Source: a virus
IMG/VR virus record: IMGVR_UViG_3300010373_000028
Location: 1-37,646 of that record
Direction: 5' to 3' (one strand)
DNA length: 37,646 bases
The notes beneath the pieces are model-generated. The model did no database searches. It saw only the letters and a list, made by a program, of their open reading frames with translations, and was not told the DNA's origin. Made by a program: the position numbers and the translations under genes. Position 1 is the first letter of the stretch, and every line of letters begins with the position of its first letter. Of the stretch, positions 6,463-12,301 are shown piece by piece.

Positions 6463-6463
6463 G

Positions 6464-6547
6464 TGGAGAAAAAAGGATTCGAACCTTTGAAGGCATAATG
6501 CCCACAGATTTACAGTCTGCTCCCTTTGGCCTCTTGGATATTTCTCC
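6464..6547 (-). tRNA. tRNA-Tyr (anticodon GTA)
   Basis: On the - strand, GGAGAAA pairs with TTTCTCC as the seven-pair acceptor stem. The anticodon arm is CAGA-CTGTAAA-TCTG with anticodon GTA. The T arm is AAAGG-TTCGAAT-CCTTT, and a long variable arm precedes it, as expected for bacterial tRNA-Tyr. The discriminator is A; CCA is not encoded. It lies 6 bases downstream of tRNA-Asn in the same transcript direction and runs convergently into the lysis genes. Confidence 0.93.
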
Positions 6548-6553
6548 ATAGAA

Positions 6554-6626
6554 CTGAGGAGAAGGGATTCGAACCCCTGCTTTTCCGGTTAACAGCCGGG
6601 TGCCTTACCAGCTTGGCCACTCCTCA
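6554..6626 (-). tRNA. tRNA-Asn (anticodon GTT)
   Basis: On the - strand the acceptor stem TGAGGAG pairs fully with CTCCTCA. The anticodon arm is CCGG-CTGTTAA-CCGG with anticodon GTT, the T arm is AGGGG-TTCGAAT-CCCTT, and the discriminator is G, usual for Asn. No CCA is encoded. With tRNA-Tyr it forms a two-tRNA unit read opposite to the flanking genes. Confidence 0.93.
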
Positions 6627-6657
6627 ATATAAAGTATTTTAGTTAACATGTTCTCTA

Positions 6658-7284: not shown

Positions 7285-8103
7285 ATGTGGCATGCCTACT
7301 TCATGGAAAGATATGGAAGTTGTCAAAAGTGCATGGGTCATGGGTGTAATCGTTGTGATTTCATGGGCTTTGACGGCTCTGCCTTAACTTATCTAGATAA
7401 CCAAAGAAAGTCAGATAAAGAAGCTACGCCAAAAGACGATCCTTATTCGCAGGGGTTAGAGCGCTTGAATGTAGGGTGTAATCCCTTATTCAAGACTGAA
7501 ACTTACGCGATGAAACAGGCTATTTTGGCTCTGAATCTGGCTTTAAAGAAAGAAGGACAAAATATGCAGTTTAATGTGAAAAAGAATGAAACCAGTTTAA
7601 GTGGGAATGACTTTATTCTCTTAAAAGATAAGGAATCCATTAGCGGCGTTTTTCAAGGGAACCCTTTTGAGTTTAAGGTTCATTGGCTTAATAATAGATC
7701 CGAGAAGTGCAATGGAAAAAATTGTACGCAGTGTTCCGCGGGAAACAAACCACGATTTCGGTTTAGACTGAATATGATTGTTAAAGAAGGCGATCAGTTC
7801 AAAGCTAAGATCTTTGAAAATAGTTTTAGGGTTTACGAACAACTAAGGGCTTTGAACGAGTCTGATTATGACCTTGAAGATGTCTTCGTTAAAATTACCA
7901 GAAGCGGGGAGGGAACCGATACACAGTATTCGATTCTCCCCCTTAAAAACGGGGCTCTGACAGATAATCATAAAAAGCTGATTAGTACGGTGAAACTTCA
8001 TAATTTGGATCAGTTTAATAGCTCTCAGGCGGCTAATAATCAAGAAAAGATTCCAGAAGAGGTATCTGATTCCAATGAAGATTTTAATGACATCCCATTT
8101 TGA
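7285..8103 (+). CDS. Single-stranded DNA-binding protein with N-terminal CxxC zinc motif
   Basis: The 272-residue frame has three parts. Residues 13-24 contain C-x2-C-x4-C-x2-C followed by DFMGFDG, a DnaJ-like zinc motif. Residues about 94-235 form the core with HWLNNRSEKC, CNGKNCTQC and KPRFRFRLN, which looks like a zinc-stabilised phage ssDNA-binding protein, then VYEQLRALNESDYDLEDV and VKITRSGEGTDTQYSILPL. The acidic C-terminus ends SNEDFNDIPF, matching the SSB tip (D-x-I/L-P-F) that recruits repair and replication partners. It should coat ssDNA during replication or recombination. An internal ATG at 7564 (Met94) has AAGGA upstream and could give a second, 179-residue product lacking the first zinc motif. 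Confidence 0.75.
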   Translation: MWHAYFMERYGSCQKCMGHGCNRCDFMGFDGSALTYLDNQRKSDKEATPKDDPYSQGLERLNVGCNPLFKTETYAMKQAILALNLALKKEGQNMQFNVKKNETSLSGNDFILLKDKESISGVFQGNPFEFKVHWLNNRSEKCNGKNCTQCSAGNKPRFRFRLNMIVKEGDQFKAKIFENSFRVYEQLRALNESDYDLEDVFVKITRSGEGTDTQYSILPLKNGALTDNHKKLISTVKLHNLDQFNSSQAANNQEKIPEEVSDSNEDFNDIPF

Positions 8104-8172
8104 TTGTGTTTAGATCACTTCACTGAAAGTTGAAATTATCATAGATTGTTCTCCGATTTTGCTTATGAATAG

Positions 8173-8211
8173 GAGCCTTTTACCTTGATTGGTAACAGGC
8201 TCTTTTTTTTT
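8173..8211 (+). terminator. Rho-independent terminator after the ssDNA-binding gene
   Basis: GAGCC pairs with GGCTC, an internal TTACC pairs with GGTAA across a small internal loop, and a run of eight T follows directly. It ends the + strand unit of the nuclease/ssDNA-binding region. Confidence 0.88.
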
Positions 8212-8212
8212 A

Positions 8213-8282
8213 ATTAATTAACGTCTATAAACAGCTATTAACGTTTATATCAACAGCATGCTTTGTTAATTAACAGCCTAAA
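8213..8282. promoter_or_regulatory. AT-rich control region upstream of the TnpA-like gene
   Basis: The segment holds TTAATTAA twice, TTAACGT or AACGT elements, and an inverted repeat TATAAAC (8225-8231) / GTTTATA ten bases later. A related TATAAAC/GTTTA palindrome precedes the 13003 gene. These look like operator half-sites, but the binding protein is unknown. Confidence 0.4.
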
Positions 8283-8295
8283 AAGGAGAATCCAT

Positions 8296-8730
8296 ATGGC
8301 TAAAGTGACCGTTTTAAAAACGCAGCGTCAGAGTTTCACAGACGAAGAGAGAATCCAGCTTCTAAAAGATTGGAAAGAGTCTGGGAAGACGATGAGAGAG
8401 TTTGCTCAGAGTCGGGGACTCACCGCAGCAAGTCTGCATCAGTGGAGAGAGCGCTATCCTAATGCTCTTAGCACTCTACCCATTAAGCTCGTTCAAAGTA
8501 CTCCTATAAGCGATCCTCATGCGTCTAATACCCAACTCCCAACTCCATTCACCACGGAAGATGTGACCACTGAAGTTGAGGAGCTGAACACGAGGATTAT
8601 GGAGCTAGAACAGACGAATAGAGAAGTTCTAGATAGGGTTAAGAAATTAACGGAAGAGATTTATGGGTATCAAAAGACTTTTGGAAGAGTGATGTTCCAA
8701 CGAGAAATGGAGCGGAATCCGGGAGTATGA
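8296..8730 (+). CDS. IS66 TnpA-like helix-turn-helix protein, domesticated
   Basis: I start at the ATG at 8296 because AAGGAG lies seven bases upstream; this gives 144 residues. Residues about 12-54 read FTDEERIQLLKDW, KESGKTMREFA, QSRGLTAASLHQWRERY, the IS3/IS66-type transposase helix-turn-helix (DEE-R...SG.....FA...GL....L..WR.RY). A proline/threonine-rich linker and a long coiled coil (about 95-135, EELNTRIMELEQTNREVLDR) follow. IS66 elements carry TnpA, TnpB and the DDE transposase TnpC; only A- and B-like proteins (this one and 12302-12835) occur here. It probably binds specific DNA, perhaps the repeats in the following gene-free region. The exact role is unknown. Confidence 0.75.
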   Translation: MAKVTVLKTQRQSFTDEERIQLLKDWKESGKTMREFAQSRGLTAASLHQWRERYPNALSTLPIKLVQSTPISDPHASNTQLPTPFTTEDVTTEVEELNTRIMELEQTNREVLDRVKKLTEEIYGYQKTFGRVMFQREMERNPGV

Positions 8731-8738
8731 GCTTGTGA

Positions 8739-8759
8739 CCGGTAGTGTACAGCTACCGG
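8739..8759 (+). other. Perfect 7-bp hairpin after the TnpA-like gene
   Basis: CCGGTAG pairs with CTACCGG around a seven-base loop, nine bases after the stop codon. No T-run follows, so it is not a standard intrinsic terminator. It could be a 3'-end or processing signal, or a protein-binding site. Confidence 0.5.
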
Positions 8760-8870
8760 AACCCAAGACAACAGTTTATGAGTCAGTTATCGAAAGTTAT
8801 GCAATGTGTTATTAGTATTTTATATCTAAGTCAATAGAAAAAATCACTTCACTCTATCTATTCGATTTCT

Positions 8871-8919
8871 AAGGGGAACCCGGTGTATTGGGCGCCCCTT
8901 AGAGATCCATTTATGGATA
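8871..8919. other. Paired inverted repeats in the gene-free region
   Basis: AAGGGG (8871) pairs with CCCCTT (ending 8900), with a nested CCC/GGG pair; immediately after, ATCCAT-TT-ATGGAT (8906-8919) forms a second hairpin. Function is not evident. They lie between the TnpA-like gene and the iteron array. Confidence 0.45.
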
Positions 8920-9030
8920 TCTGCGCAGCACAGTATGCTCAGTACAATGCATGATGTCTCAGATCAATGCTAAATGCGTGCCTGCCAGTCCCATAACCAC
9001 CACAACCACAAGAAATATGAGGTAATAGTA

Positions 9031-9064: not shown

Positions 9065-9148
9065 ACTTTTGTCACTTTTGTCACTTATGCTTTTAAGATT
9101 TGCTTCACTTTGCTTCACTTTGCTTAGGTTTGCTTGAGTTTGCTTGCG
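9065..9148. repeat. Iteron-like tandem repeats (9-bp and 10-bp units)
   Basis: ACTTTTGTC occurs at 9065 and 9074 with a partial third copy at 9083. After a short spacer, TTTGCTTNNN repeats five times in exact 10-bp steps starting at 9099, 9109, 9119, 9129 and 9139. The TTTGCTT core is invariant while the last three bases vary. A 10-bp step places every copy on the same helix face, as in iteron origins or cooperative operator arrays. A replication origin or partition-like site is inferred from this layout only. Confidence 0.65.
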
Positions 9149-9204
9149 CTCTGTTCCAGAAAAGCTAAAGTTTGTTGACAAAGGCTACTTGGTGAGGCAT
9201 TAAA

Positions 9205-9242
9205 CGAAAAAAGGCCAGCTGGAGTTTAATCCAACTGACCTT
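9205..9242 (-). terminator. Rho-independent terminator, - strand
   Basis: Read on the - strand, AAGGTCAGTTGGA pairs with TCCAGCTGGCCTT around a short A+T-rich loop and runs into six T. Two of the stem pairs are G-T on the - strand but would be C-A mismatches on the + strand, so the functional RNA is the - strand one. It marks the 3' end of the structured transcript to its right. Confidence 0.82.
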
Positions 9243-9382
9243 ATATTGTTTGTTAAGTTGATCGCTTTGTCGCATATCGCGAATAAACAATCAACTTAAT
9301 AATCAATAAATTTTTAAAAAGTTTCAGTTTTAGGAACTGTCGACCAAACCGTCTCTTAAAACTTAAACTTAGGGGCTTATTA

Positions 9383-9435
9383 GTGGGACCCGATTCCCAC
9401 AACAAATTACGCTATTAGTGGCACCTGGTTGCCAC
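9383..9435 (-). repeat. Twin hairpins with a compensatory base-pair change
   Basis: Two six-pair hairpins, 35 bp apart, share flanks and loops: on the - strand GTGGCA-ACCAGG-TGCCAC and GTGGGA-ATCGGG-TCCCAC, each preceded by TTGT or TTGTT and followed by TAATA. The fifth stem pair is C-G in one and G-C in the other, so the pairing and not the sequence is conserved. Confidence 0.7.
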
Positions 9436-9922
9436 AAGGAGCTGAGCAGGACCTTTACAGTCCAACGACCAGCTCTGGTGTAGAGATACACTCCCCTCGC
9501 ACATAATGCAAGGGCTAGCATAGCCGGAAGAGTGTCTAAGATCTTCTGGCATCCAGATTGGCGACGAGGCGGCTCCAGGCCGTTCAGTAGCACTCTCTCA
9601 GAGAGACCGCTTAAAGGGTTATCCGGACCATAAGCGACCGAGGCAGACTAAGCCTTTCCTGCTGAGAGATCGATTAAGACTTCCTCCCTTTAGTCAGATT
9701 GGAATGGGGGGTAGGGGGGCTATTATCTCTCCTTTGCTCAGAGGCTCACCATCCGTTCAGGTTTCTGAACGCGAAGTAAGCAGCTTCTTCGAAGCTTTCC
9801 CTTATAAGCCTTTTCTGCTTTAGAGTTTCCGATAGGAAACGATATTTTGTCTTTTATTTGTTCTTTTTTTTTTAATTCTTAATAATAAATAAAAAAATCT
9901 TAGTTTTTGTAGTGAATTAACA

Positions 9923-9936
9923 AAGCGCAAGCGCTT
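9923..9936. promoter_or_regulatory. Inverted repeat AAGCGC-AA-GCGCTT
   Basis: This perfect inverted repeat sits between the presumed start of the - strand RNA and the + strand genes beginning at 9990-9999. It is a candidate operator for the two divergent transcripts. The flanks (TTAACA, TTAACT) are also partly symmetric. Confidence 0.45.
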
Positions 9937-9998
9937 AACTAAAAATAGACTACTTACTACGCGTTCAATGCCAGAATTCCGTCCTGAAAGTGAGAGAT

Positions 9999-10220
9999 AT
10001 GAAGTTCAATCAATATCCTGAGCAAAAATGGTTCACTCCCACTTCACTAGCTGAAGCAGCTTATAAGATGGTTCTTGAGAATAAAGTTGGAACTCCTGAA
10101 TTCCAAGCACTGATTAATATTTACGGGCTTGAGAGAATAGATCAGCTAGTGAGCGAAGAGCATTCTAAGTTTTTAAAACGCGAGCAAGAAAAAAAAAGTG
10201 ATGATAAAATTGATGAATGA
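9999..10220 (+). CDS. Small protein, first of a tandem paralogous pair
   Basis: From ATG 9999 it has 73 residues; a GTG at 9990 would add three. It contains LAEAAYKMVLENKVGTPEFQ and LINIYGLERIDQLVSEEHSKF. The next gene encodes a similar core (LKETVYELYRDGKASTPEFK and LVSYYGRERVKRMIHEER), so this is a tandem duplication. The shared block is helix, K-x-x-TPEF, helix, YG.ER, EE. I do not recognise the family. The charged C-terminus ends KKSDDKIDE. It overlaps its paralogue by ATGA. Confidence 0.65.
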   Translation: MKFNQYPEQKWFTPTSLAEAAYKMVLENKVGTPEFQALINIYGLERIDQLVSEEHSKFLKREQEKKSDDKIDE

Positions 10221-10426
10221 CTCATGACCCACTTAGGTTCATCAAACTCTCAGGCAATGAGGAGCTCTGGAAGGACGCTAAAACGCTCAAGGAGACCGTA
10301 TACGAGCTTTATAGGGATGGGAAAGCCTCTACCCCTGAGTTTAAGTCTCTTGTGTCCTATTACGGCAGGGAACGCGTTAAAAGAATGATCCACGAAGAAA
10401 GAGTCAGAAGGTCAAAGGTCAAATGA
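10217..10426 (+). CDS. Small basic protein, second of the tandem paralogous pair
   Basis: This 69-residue protein shares the TPEF...L...YG.ER....EE block with the preceding gene but is more basic, ending ERVRRSKVK. It starts in ATGA overlap with its paralogue and ends in the same overlap with a membrane peptide gene, so three tiny genes are translationally linked. The basic charge suggests nucleic-acid contact. Function is unknown. Confidence 0.65.
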   Translation: MTHDPLRFIKLSGNEELWKDAKTLKETVYELYRDGKASTPEFKSLVSYYGRERVKRMIHEERVRRSKVK

Positions 10427-10628: not shown

Positions 10629-11096
10629 ATGTTATTATCTGACAAAGAGTTTCAGTCGGTGAAAACTTATTTGGATAAGCATTTTGGGAAGAAGGTTCCT
10701 ACTCCCGAAGAAGTTTTAGAAATCGCGAAAGATGAAAAAAGTGCGATTCACTCTTATTTCGAATGGGATGATAAAAAAGCTGCTAAACAATATCGGCTTT
10801 TTCAGGCGAGGTCTTTAATTAAAATAGTTCTGATCGAGGACTCACCTCGTGAGATTCCCTCTTACGAATATCTAAAAATTGAGTCTGGAAATAACTTAGG
10901 ATCTTATTTTTCAAATAATGAAGAATCTCATTCCTTTGAAGATCTCATGATTCCAAGCGCATTATCCGAACTGAAATCTTTTAAAGAACGCTATAAAAAT
11001 CATATCAAGCTTGTTCCTGTCATTGATGCCATTAACCAATTATTAAAGGAGTACGAACATGGCGAAGAAGAAACAAAGGCAAGAATCTGTAGTTAA
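10629..11096 (+). CDS. Conserved-type phage protein of unknown function (155 aa)
   Basis: AAGGAG lies ten bases upstream of the ATG. The N-terminus ([42 protein letters not shown]) has a helical [16 protein letters not shown] motif that I associate with early phage proteins of unknown function. The rest is helical and acidic. It overlaps the next gene by 38 bases, so the two are probably co-expressed and perhaps partners. Confidence 0.65.
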
Positions 11097-11802
11097 TCTT
11101 GATGAAATAGAGCTTGTTGAGGTGAGTGATCAAGAAGAAGAAAAAGAAGAAGAAGAAGTTAAAAAAGAAAAAAAGTTTTCTTCTGAACAAAAGATATTAA
11201 TTCCTCCCATCGCTCTTAAGAGAGTAAAAATCACAATCGTTGGAGAAACCCCTCTTTTAGTTCAAAAGTTCTCTGAGAAAGCCAGGCGTCAGATCGAAGA
11301 TAAACAACAAGGAAGAGGAAAACCTGGGCGTGGTCAAAGGGATCCTGAGCAAGAATTTAAGGACTCTTTATACGTGATTGATGAGAAAAAAAAGATTTAT
11401 GGAGTTCCAGCGTCAGGAATAAAAAACGCGTGCGTTTCAGCTTGCAGGTTTATCACAGGAGTCCCTATGACGATTGCAAGAGGAGCTTTCCATGTGATTG
11501 ATGACGGAAGTGGTCTTATTCCGATTTCTGGATCGGATCCTGAGATGGAATTTGGACCTGTCATGGATAGTAGACCCGTTCGAATTGGCAAAGGTTTAGC
11601 AAAAGTAGCTGACATGAGGTATCGCGGCAGATTTGATAAGTGGGCAGTTACGTTTCAAGTGCTCTATAACTCAGGCGTCATTTCGGCTGAGCAGCTTTTA
11701 AACCTTTTTGAAAACGCAGGGTTCGCAGTGGGACTTTGTGAGTACCGCCCTGAGAAAAACGGAAATTATGGAATGTTTCGCGTCAGCAGGGAAAACGCCT
11801 AG
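11059..11802 (+). CDS. Phage early protein of unknown function, possibly RAMP-like fold
   Basis: The 247-residue protein starts behind AAGGAG (11047-11052). Residues about 12-45 are a low-complexity, Glu/Lys-rich linker. The folded part contains [22 protein letters not shown], a [13 protein letters not shown] segment, [42 protein letters not shown] and [21 protein letters not shown] recognise it as a recurring early phage protein next to the 155-residue partner. The strand order and R-rich motifs are reminiscent of Cas7/RAMP folds, which would suggest nucleic-acid binding, but that is a guess. It lies just before the G-rich repeat region. Confidence 0.65.
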
Positions 11803-12301
11803 GCAGGAGGGGAGGGGCGTCGAGTGGAAAGGAACAGACGGAACAGATCGGACTGGCTGTAAATGAACGGAGTCGAATAGCAGGGACAGGATAGGACGCG
11901 TTAGGAAAGGCTGGAGGTACAAGGAACGCAACCCAGTGGATCCGTCAGCAACGCAAAGGCAGTAGGGGCTGCGCACGGATGTTAGGGGAGGGGAGCGGAA
12001 CGGAACCGCTAGGAACGGCTGTCTAGGAACGGCTGTCATGGAGGGGAATCGCCCGAAAACTAATGGAACGGCTGGAAATGCAGCGCGGGGACATGAAGGG
12101 ATCCGCAAGTAGCGGACAGTAAGGAACGGCTGGAGATGACGGGAAGGAACAGCTTGGAAAGGATTGTCCTGGAACGGAACGGCTGTAACCGACCGAAGGG
12201 GATTGGCGGGGCCTGTACGGGAATGGAAAGGCTGGACTGGGGTCGTTCGGAAGCGAATGCAACATAGATGTGCGTAAAGGAATGGCGGGAAAGGATAATC
12301 A
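11803..12301 (+). repeat. G-rich, gene-free region with dispersed GGAACGGCTG repeats
   Basis: This 499-bp gap is strongly purine-biased and G-rich on the + strand and far more G+C-rich than its surroundings. GGAACGGCTG occurs exactly five times (near 12012, 12025, 12065, 12123 and 12175) with several one- or two-base variants (GGAAAGGCTG, GGAACAGCTTG, GGACTGGCTG, GGAATGGCGG), all in the same orientation. Clusters such as GGAGGGGAGGGG also occur. Long - strand frames here are Pro/Ser/Leu-rich products of the repeats, not proteins. Candidates are an R-loop-forming origin, a protein-binding array or a structured untranslated RNA. The sequence does not decide. Confidence 0.7.

Follow-up and report, generated by a model that had tools for sequence, protein, structure and literature searches.

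Does the gap between the stop codon at 8730 and the start codon at 9990 of this phage contig encode a large structured RNA and, if so, on which strand and of what kind? The window, that is the whole 37,646-bp viral contig that was analysed, belongs to a tailed phage by gene content, and its recognised protein genes (terminase, portal, tail, SLT lysis, DUF1064/resolvase-like, SSB-like and HTH) are all encoded on the plus strand. Relatives of its terminase were found in other uncultured viral contigs at ~60% identity or below, with one in a deltaproteobacterial MAG of bog origin, while a search for relatives of the SSB-like gene found none. The sole other RNA genes of the window are two tRNA genes:

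6463-6627, minus strand: tRNA-Tyr and tRNA-Asn.

Among related records, tRNA-Asn was present in three and tRNA-Tyr in one (L488, L490, L492 and L497), and in the related record inspected closely the tRNA borders a plus-strand operon. At 8263-8730, the window encodes a lone HTH_Tnp_1 (transposase OrfA-like) protein; no transposase was recognised next to it, and the phage collection contained no match. Downstream of this HTH gene, at 8868-8911, lies a strong two-tier hairpin, CTAAGGGG...CCCCTTAG.

The best explanation of the locus, to which we assign a probability of roughly 0.4, is an orphan stand-alone minus-strand non-coding RNA gene of a tailed phage, most likely producing a trans-acting scaffold:

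9205-9880, minus strand: putative stand-alone structured non-coding RNA, with its 3' end at ~9205-9211 and an uncertain 5' end.

Transcription of this region as a minus-strand structured RNA, whatever its role, is rather probable; granted that, a trans-acting scaffold role, argued by analogy, would have about an even chance. Both tRNA genes share the minus strand, as opposed to the recognised protein genes, which provides supporting context. Counted against an RNA gene are the lack of homologues, the lack of a convincing minus-strand promoter, poor folding of one internal segment and absence of the RNA from relatives carrying tRNA-Asn, all detailed below.

The non-coding status of the region is established, as claimed in an earlier note on this DNA. 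No open reading frame in the gap carried a convincing coding signal; the longest one within the RNA region spans 74 aa, codon scores were at shuffle level, and a protein family search (PHROG) with the ORFs of the region gave no match. The same coding test was passed by true neighbour genes of like size (9990-10220 and 10217-10426). The GC content of 9437-9723 is 0.54, a level seen in 1% of comparable windows, the contig as a whole averaging 0.396. About 680 nt separate the terminator described below from an AT-rich putative promoter region, with a putative 5' end near 9860-9880. Scanning upstream of the RNA for minus-strand promoters revealed none with at least 9/12 matches, the best (8/12) being located in 9880-9970.

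The 3' boundary is marked by two adjoining elements:

9211-9242, minus strand: intrinsic terminator, a 13-bp stem (6 G-C pairs, two G-U pairs) followed by a U tract.
9244-9308, minus strand: long imperfect AT-rich hairpin of ~27 pairs, an inverted repeat directly upstream of the terminator.

The minus-strand intrinsic terminator that the earlier note had placed here is the strongest of the contig: its stem (9242-9211) is the longest terminator-like stem on both strands of the 37.6 kb, the runner-up having 9 pairs. Read on the plus strand, the stem has A-C mismatches in place of both G-U pairs and is not followed by a T run. Just past the terminator, repeats occur, and an inverted repeat brackets the putative RNA gene:

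9099-9148, no strand: five iteron-like 10-bp direct repeats TTTGCTTNNN, in register, holding 5 of the 8 TTTGCTT motifs of the window.
9065-9086, no strand: iteron-like 9-bp repeats ACTTTTGTC (x2.4), like the five TTTGCTTNNN candidate origin or regulator-binding repeats.
9142-9155, no strand: left arm of the 14-bp inverted repeat (13/14 match).
9919-9932, no strand: right arm, partner of 9142-9155.

These repeats underlie the main rival explanation, a replication or transcription control region composed of the iterons, the AT-rich dyad at 9244-9308 and a transcript of the minus strand that ends next to them, e.g. an origin RNA with a regulatory or priming function, in which case the fold would serve origin control and not a free particle. 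Such an arrangement is consistent with the repeats located 60-150 bp beyond the terminator (five of 10 bp, in register, and two to three of 9 bp), with the SSB-like and HTH genes upstream of the region and with the 14-bp inverted repeats on both sides (0/200 shuffles in a post hoc test). However, no GC-skew turning point was found here and no replication initiator gene was recognised; moreover, a primer RNA would not need an intrinsic terminator ahead of the repeats, and the five-way junction described below would be left unexplained. We regard a control region as unlikely, though it is the nearest competitor of a stand-alone RNA gene.

Fold propensity of the region as a whole is likewise established. 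Minimum free energies over 9205-9880 were -225.1 kcal/mol on the minus strand (z -6.6) and -225.6 kcal/mol on the plus strand (z -6.8), with 0/80 shuffles reaching such values for either strand, and the choice of strand is thus not given by global folding. Most of the excess stability resides in the last 98 nt (9211-9308: -45.3 kcal/mol, z -10.4, 0/200 shuffles), and the most structured 120-nt window, sampled over the whole contig, begins at 9251. With these 98 nt removed, the interior (9312-9840) gave z -2.4 on the minus and -4.2 on the plus strand, which is not exceptional relative to comparable 560-nt tiles elsewhere in the contig (mean z -1.36, sd 1.48, extreme -6.05). The extreme value belongs to the minus strand of tile 8401-8960. 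Segment 9560-9720 folded worse than shuffles on the minus strand (z +1.7). The dense hairpins reported by the earlier note are thus supported less well than stated: folding over 9205-9880 is strong (z -6 to -7), but the signal is uneven, and the interior is near background beyond the five-way junction and 9734-9800. The interior elements are as follows:

9408-9522, minus strand: five-way junction, a 7-bp closing stem with four hairpins (-51.3 kcal/mol, z -3.96, 0/200 shuffles).
9378-9402, minus strand: hairpin B of a tandem pair, UUGUGGGAAUCGGGUCCCACUAAUA, direct repeat.
9413-9437, minus strand: hairpin A of the tandem pair, UUGUGGCAACCAGGUGCCACUAAUA, direct repeat.
9734-9800, minus strand: pair of neighbouring hairpins in the 5' part (z -3.4, 1/200 shuffles).
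9649-9663 and 9805-9819, minus strand: direct repeat AGCAGGAAAGGCUUA / AGCAGAAAAGGCUUA, 14/15 identical, which may be due to chance.

The minimum-energy structure of the five-way junction on the minus strand coincides with its centroid. Tandem hairpins A and B are identical at 21 of 25 positions and differ by one compensatory C-G/G-C stem swap and two loop changes; their pattern occurs twice in the window against 0.1 expected occurrences. Judged from the two copies, the swap would be internal evidence for selection, albeit a single and strand-neutral event.

Could the region be mostly spacer or foreign higher-GC DNA, with only the 3' hairpin-terminator functional and ending another minus-strand transcript? 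The minus-strand interior, unremarkable for this genome once the last 98 nt are removed, as well as the failure to find homologues and the absence of the RNA from relatives, would fit this explanation. Against it, the five-way junction and the 5' hairpin pair both fold better than almost every shuffle, the duplicated hairpin contains a compensatory pair, and no minus-strand gene was recognised that the terminator could serve, which makes a spacer rather unlikely.

With regard to strand, the earlier note had argued that G-U pairs fix the minus orientation. Two such pairs in the terminator and two in the CCTTGCA hairpin at 9494-9514 do favour it, but a tally over helices common to both strands was nearly balanced, with 15 favouring minus and 13 favouring plus. 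The minus strand, as originally proposed, is nevertheless the probable one, not through G-U pairs in general but because the terminator exists on this strand only and because the five-way junction is better there by 9 kcal/mol (-42.3 kcal/mol and z -3.2 on plus). A functional plus strand, on which a structured RNA or leader would precede the early gene at 9990 and end at a weak plus-strand hairpin at 9825-9840, would account for the slightly better interior folding on that strand and for the U-rich tail following this hairpin (9825-9870). Its stop signal, however, has 6 pairs only and no immediate U tract, its promoter candidate (9917-9946) is located downstream of the region, and both the clear terminator and the better five-way junction are on the minus strand, making this reading quite improbable.

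No known family could be assigned to the RNA. An Rfam scan at gathering threshold gave no family match in the region, and a cmscan of a 1.4-kb stretch against 4227 Rfam families at E up to 5 yielded nothing above chance level, the hits being to unrelated families of mostly eukaryotic or viral origin. GOLLD was unmatched in this all-family scan, as were the conserved cores or family models of group I introns, group II introns and HEARO; the group II intron model RF01998, run alone, gave no match either. The ROOL model (RF03087), when run alone at E up to 10, found no match in the region and was likewise silent on positive control genomes. This agrees with the earlier statement that the RNA is not visibly ROOL or GOLLD. 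A diverged ROOL, GOLLD, group I/II intron or HEARO beyond the reach of Rfam models would suit the size, phage origin and nearby tRNAs, which fit the ROOL/GOLLD setting (PMC12286853), but with 0/4227 families matched it is quite improbable. Intron and retron-like readings were rejected, as were a tRNA array and a CsrB-like RNA (14 GGA in the RNA against 10 expected).

Searches for homologues were also negative. Using blastn against phages and plasmids, only low-complexity or ~30-nt chance matches were obtained. A synteny search covering relatives of the terminase (75) and of the gene at 11059 (83), performed with nhmmer, blastn and a single-sequence covariance model of the five-way junction (R1), gave no homologue, and none was present in the 30 whole relative records examined. 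DNA-motif scans with the tandem-hairpin pattern returned coding or chance hits, and the matches listed for AGCAGRAAAGGCTTA and paired CCACTAATA were likewise coding or due to chance. In 58 genomes around the bacterial MAG with the related terminase, poly-A matches were found, together with a coding chance match in L400. No homologue was found in the viral contigs, related phage records or phage, plasmid and bacterial sets searched, so that evidence from covariation comes from the one duplicated hairpin. A minus-strand tRNA-Asn resembling that of the window is present in three relatives, and a comparable structured gap was seen in none of them (0/3); the RNA is thus not a conserved feature of the lineage.

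For the ~650-nt minus-strand structured RNA of the earlier note, a minus-strand RNA of about 650-680 nt is still the best reading, with the reservations that much of the interior folds near background and that whole-region energy does not settle the strand. According to this reading, transcription would start in the AT-rich divergent promoter region (~9880-9970, minus strand) and stop at the intrinsic terminator, the sequence of which is given by 9242-9211. The predicted stable product of 650-680 nt would consist of an A-rich 5' leader, the 5' hairpin pair and the five-way junction with its tandem hairpin pair, and the long hairpin joined to the terminator stem is predicted to protect the 3' end. 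The most likely role of such an RNA would be that of a stable, trans-acting particle or scaffold, a role suggested for the large phage RNAs ROOL and GOLLD; the repeated hairpins would then be candidate sites at which protein or RNA docks. We further put forward, as a doubtful possibility, that it belongs to a class of large structured phage RNAs not described before and possibly confined to one uncultured lineage, which would have a five-way junction and duplicated docking hairpins and serve during infection as an RNA particle or scaffold. The candidate is a single sequence at present, and its main value is that of a well-delimited candidate.

A side finding that may outweigh the RNA in importance is a VIPR system in the same phage (10629-12301), comprising a Vipr protein and a period-5 GGA-rich array. 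A homologue of SUSP1 Vipr (PDB 36pp; E 2e-10 by profile, 1e-4 by single sequence) is encoded at 11059-11802, the gene upstream of it (10629-11096, phrog_15946) recurs beside Vipr in relatives, and the non-coding stretch after the Vipr gene (11803-12301) contains a G-rich array in which GG recurs with period 5. A Vipr gene with a period-5 GG array is the layout of VIPR systems, the vrRNA of which contains 9-16 tandem pentanucleotides with GG in phase and a pentamer consensus of GGY 'or a related consensus' (PMC13142463). The third base of the array unit here is mostly A (GGA/NN, not GGY/NN), with 44 GGA in 11803-12301 and 37 in 7948-8348 of the nearest Vipr relative, L406; most other relatives examined had few, mostly under 10. 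The GGA arrays of the window and L406 possibly represent a variant guide consensus. Targets of VIPR guides, sought in the 9205-9880 RNA and in the sequences searched, showed no excess over control.

How does the RNA compare with known systems? Very few phage RNAs of such size are known to us, the best studied being ROOL and GOLLD, whose cage function is, to our knowledge, unknown. ROOL forms a homo-octameric cage; many GOLLD members exceed about 800 nt, and the GOLLD family model has a conserved 3' region. Like the vrRNA of VIPR systems (PMC13142463), the RNA is intergenic and belongs to a phage with a Vipr gene, here 1.2 kb away, but 9205-9880 has no period-5 GG repeat (at most 5/12 in phase against 8/12 in the array at 11803-12301), so that it is not a vrRNA and this identity was ruled out. 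ROOL and GOLLD, which are encoded in phages and often neighbour tRNA islands, assemble into RNA-only cages (PMC12286853). With GOLLD, our candidate has in common that it is large, ornate, encoded by a phage or prophage and near tRNAs, whereas it is shorter (~680 nt up to the putative promoter region), has no internal tRNA and no cmscan match. It differs from ROOL in the lack of a covariance-model match and resembles it in being phage-encoded, about 570-680 nt long, multi-branched and intergenic. The setting described for ROOL, a phage or prophage RNA often near a tRNA island (PMC12286853), may be matched in part: this phage contig has tRNA genes in the neighbourhood, but only two, 2.6 kb away on the same strand as the RNA and not forming a tRNA island. 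If the stand-alone RNA gene is real, an unrelated RNA of ROOL/GOLLD size and setting would offer an independent test of the purpose of such RNAs.
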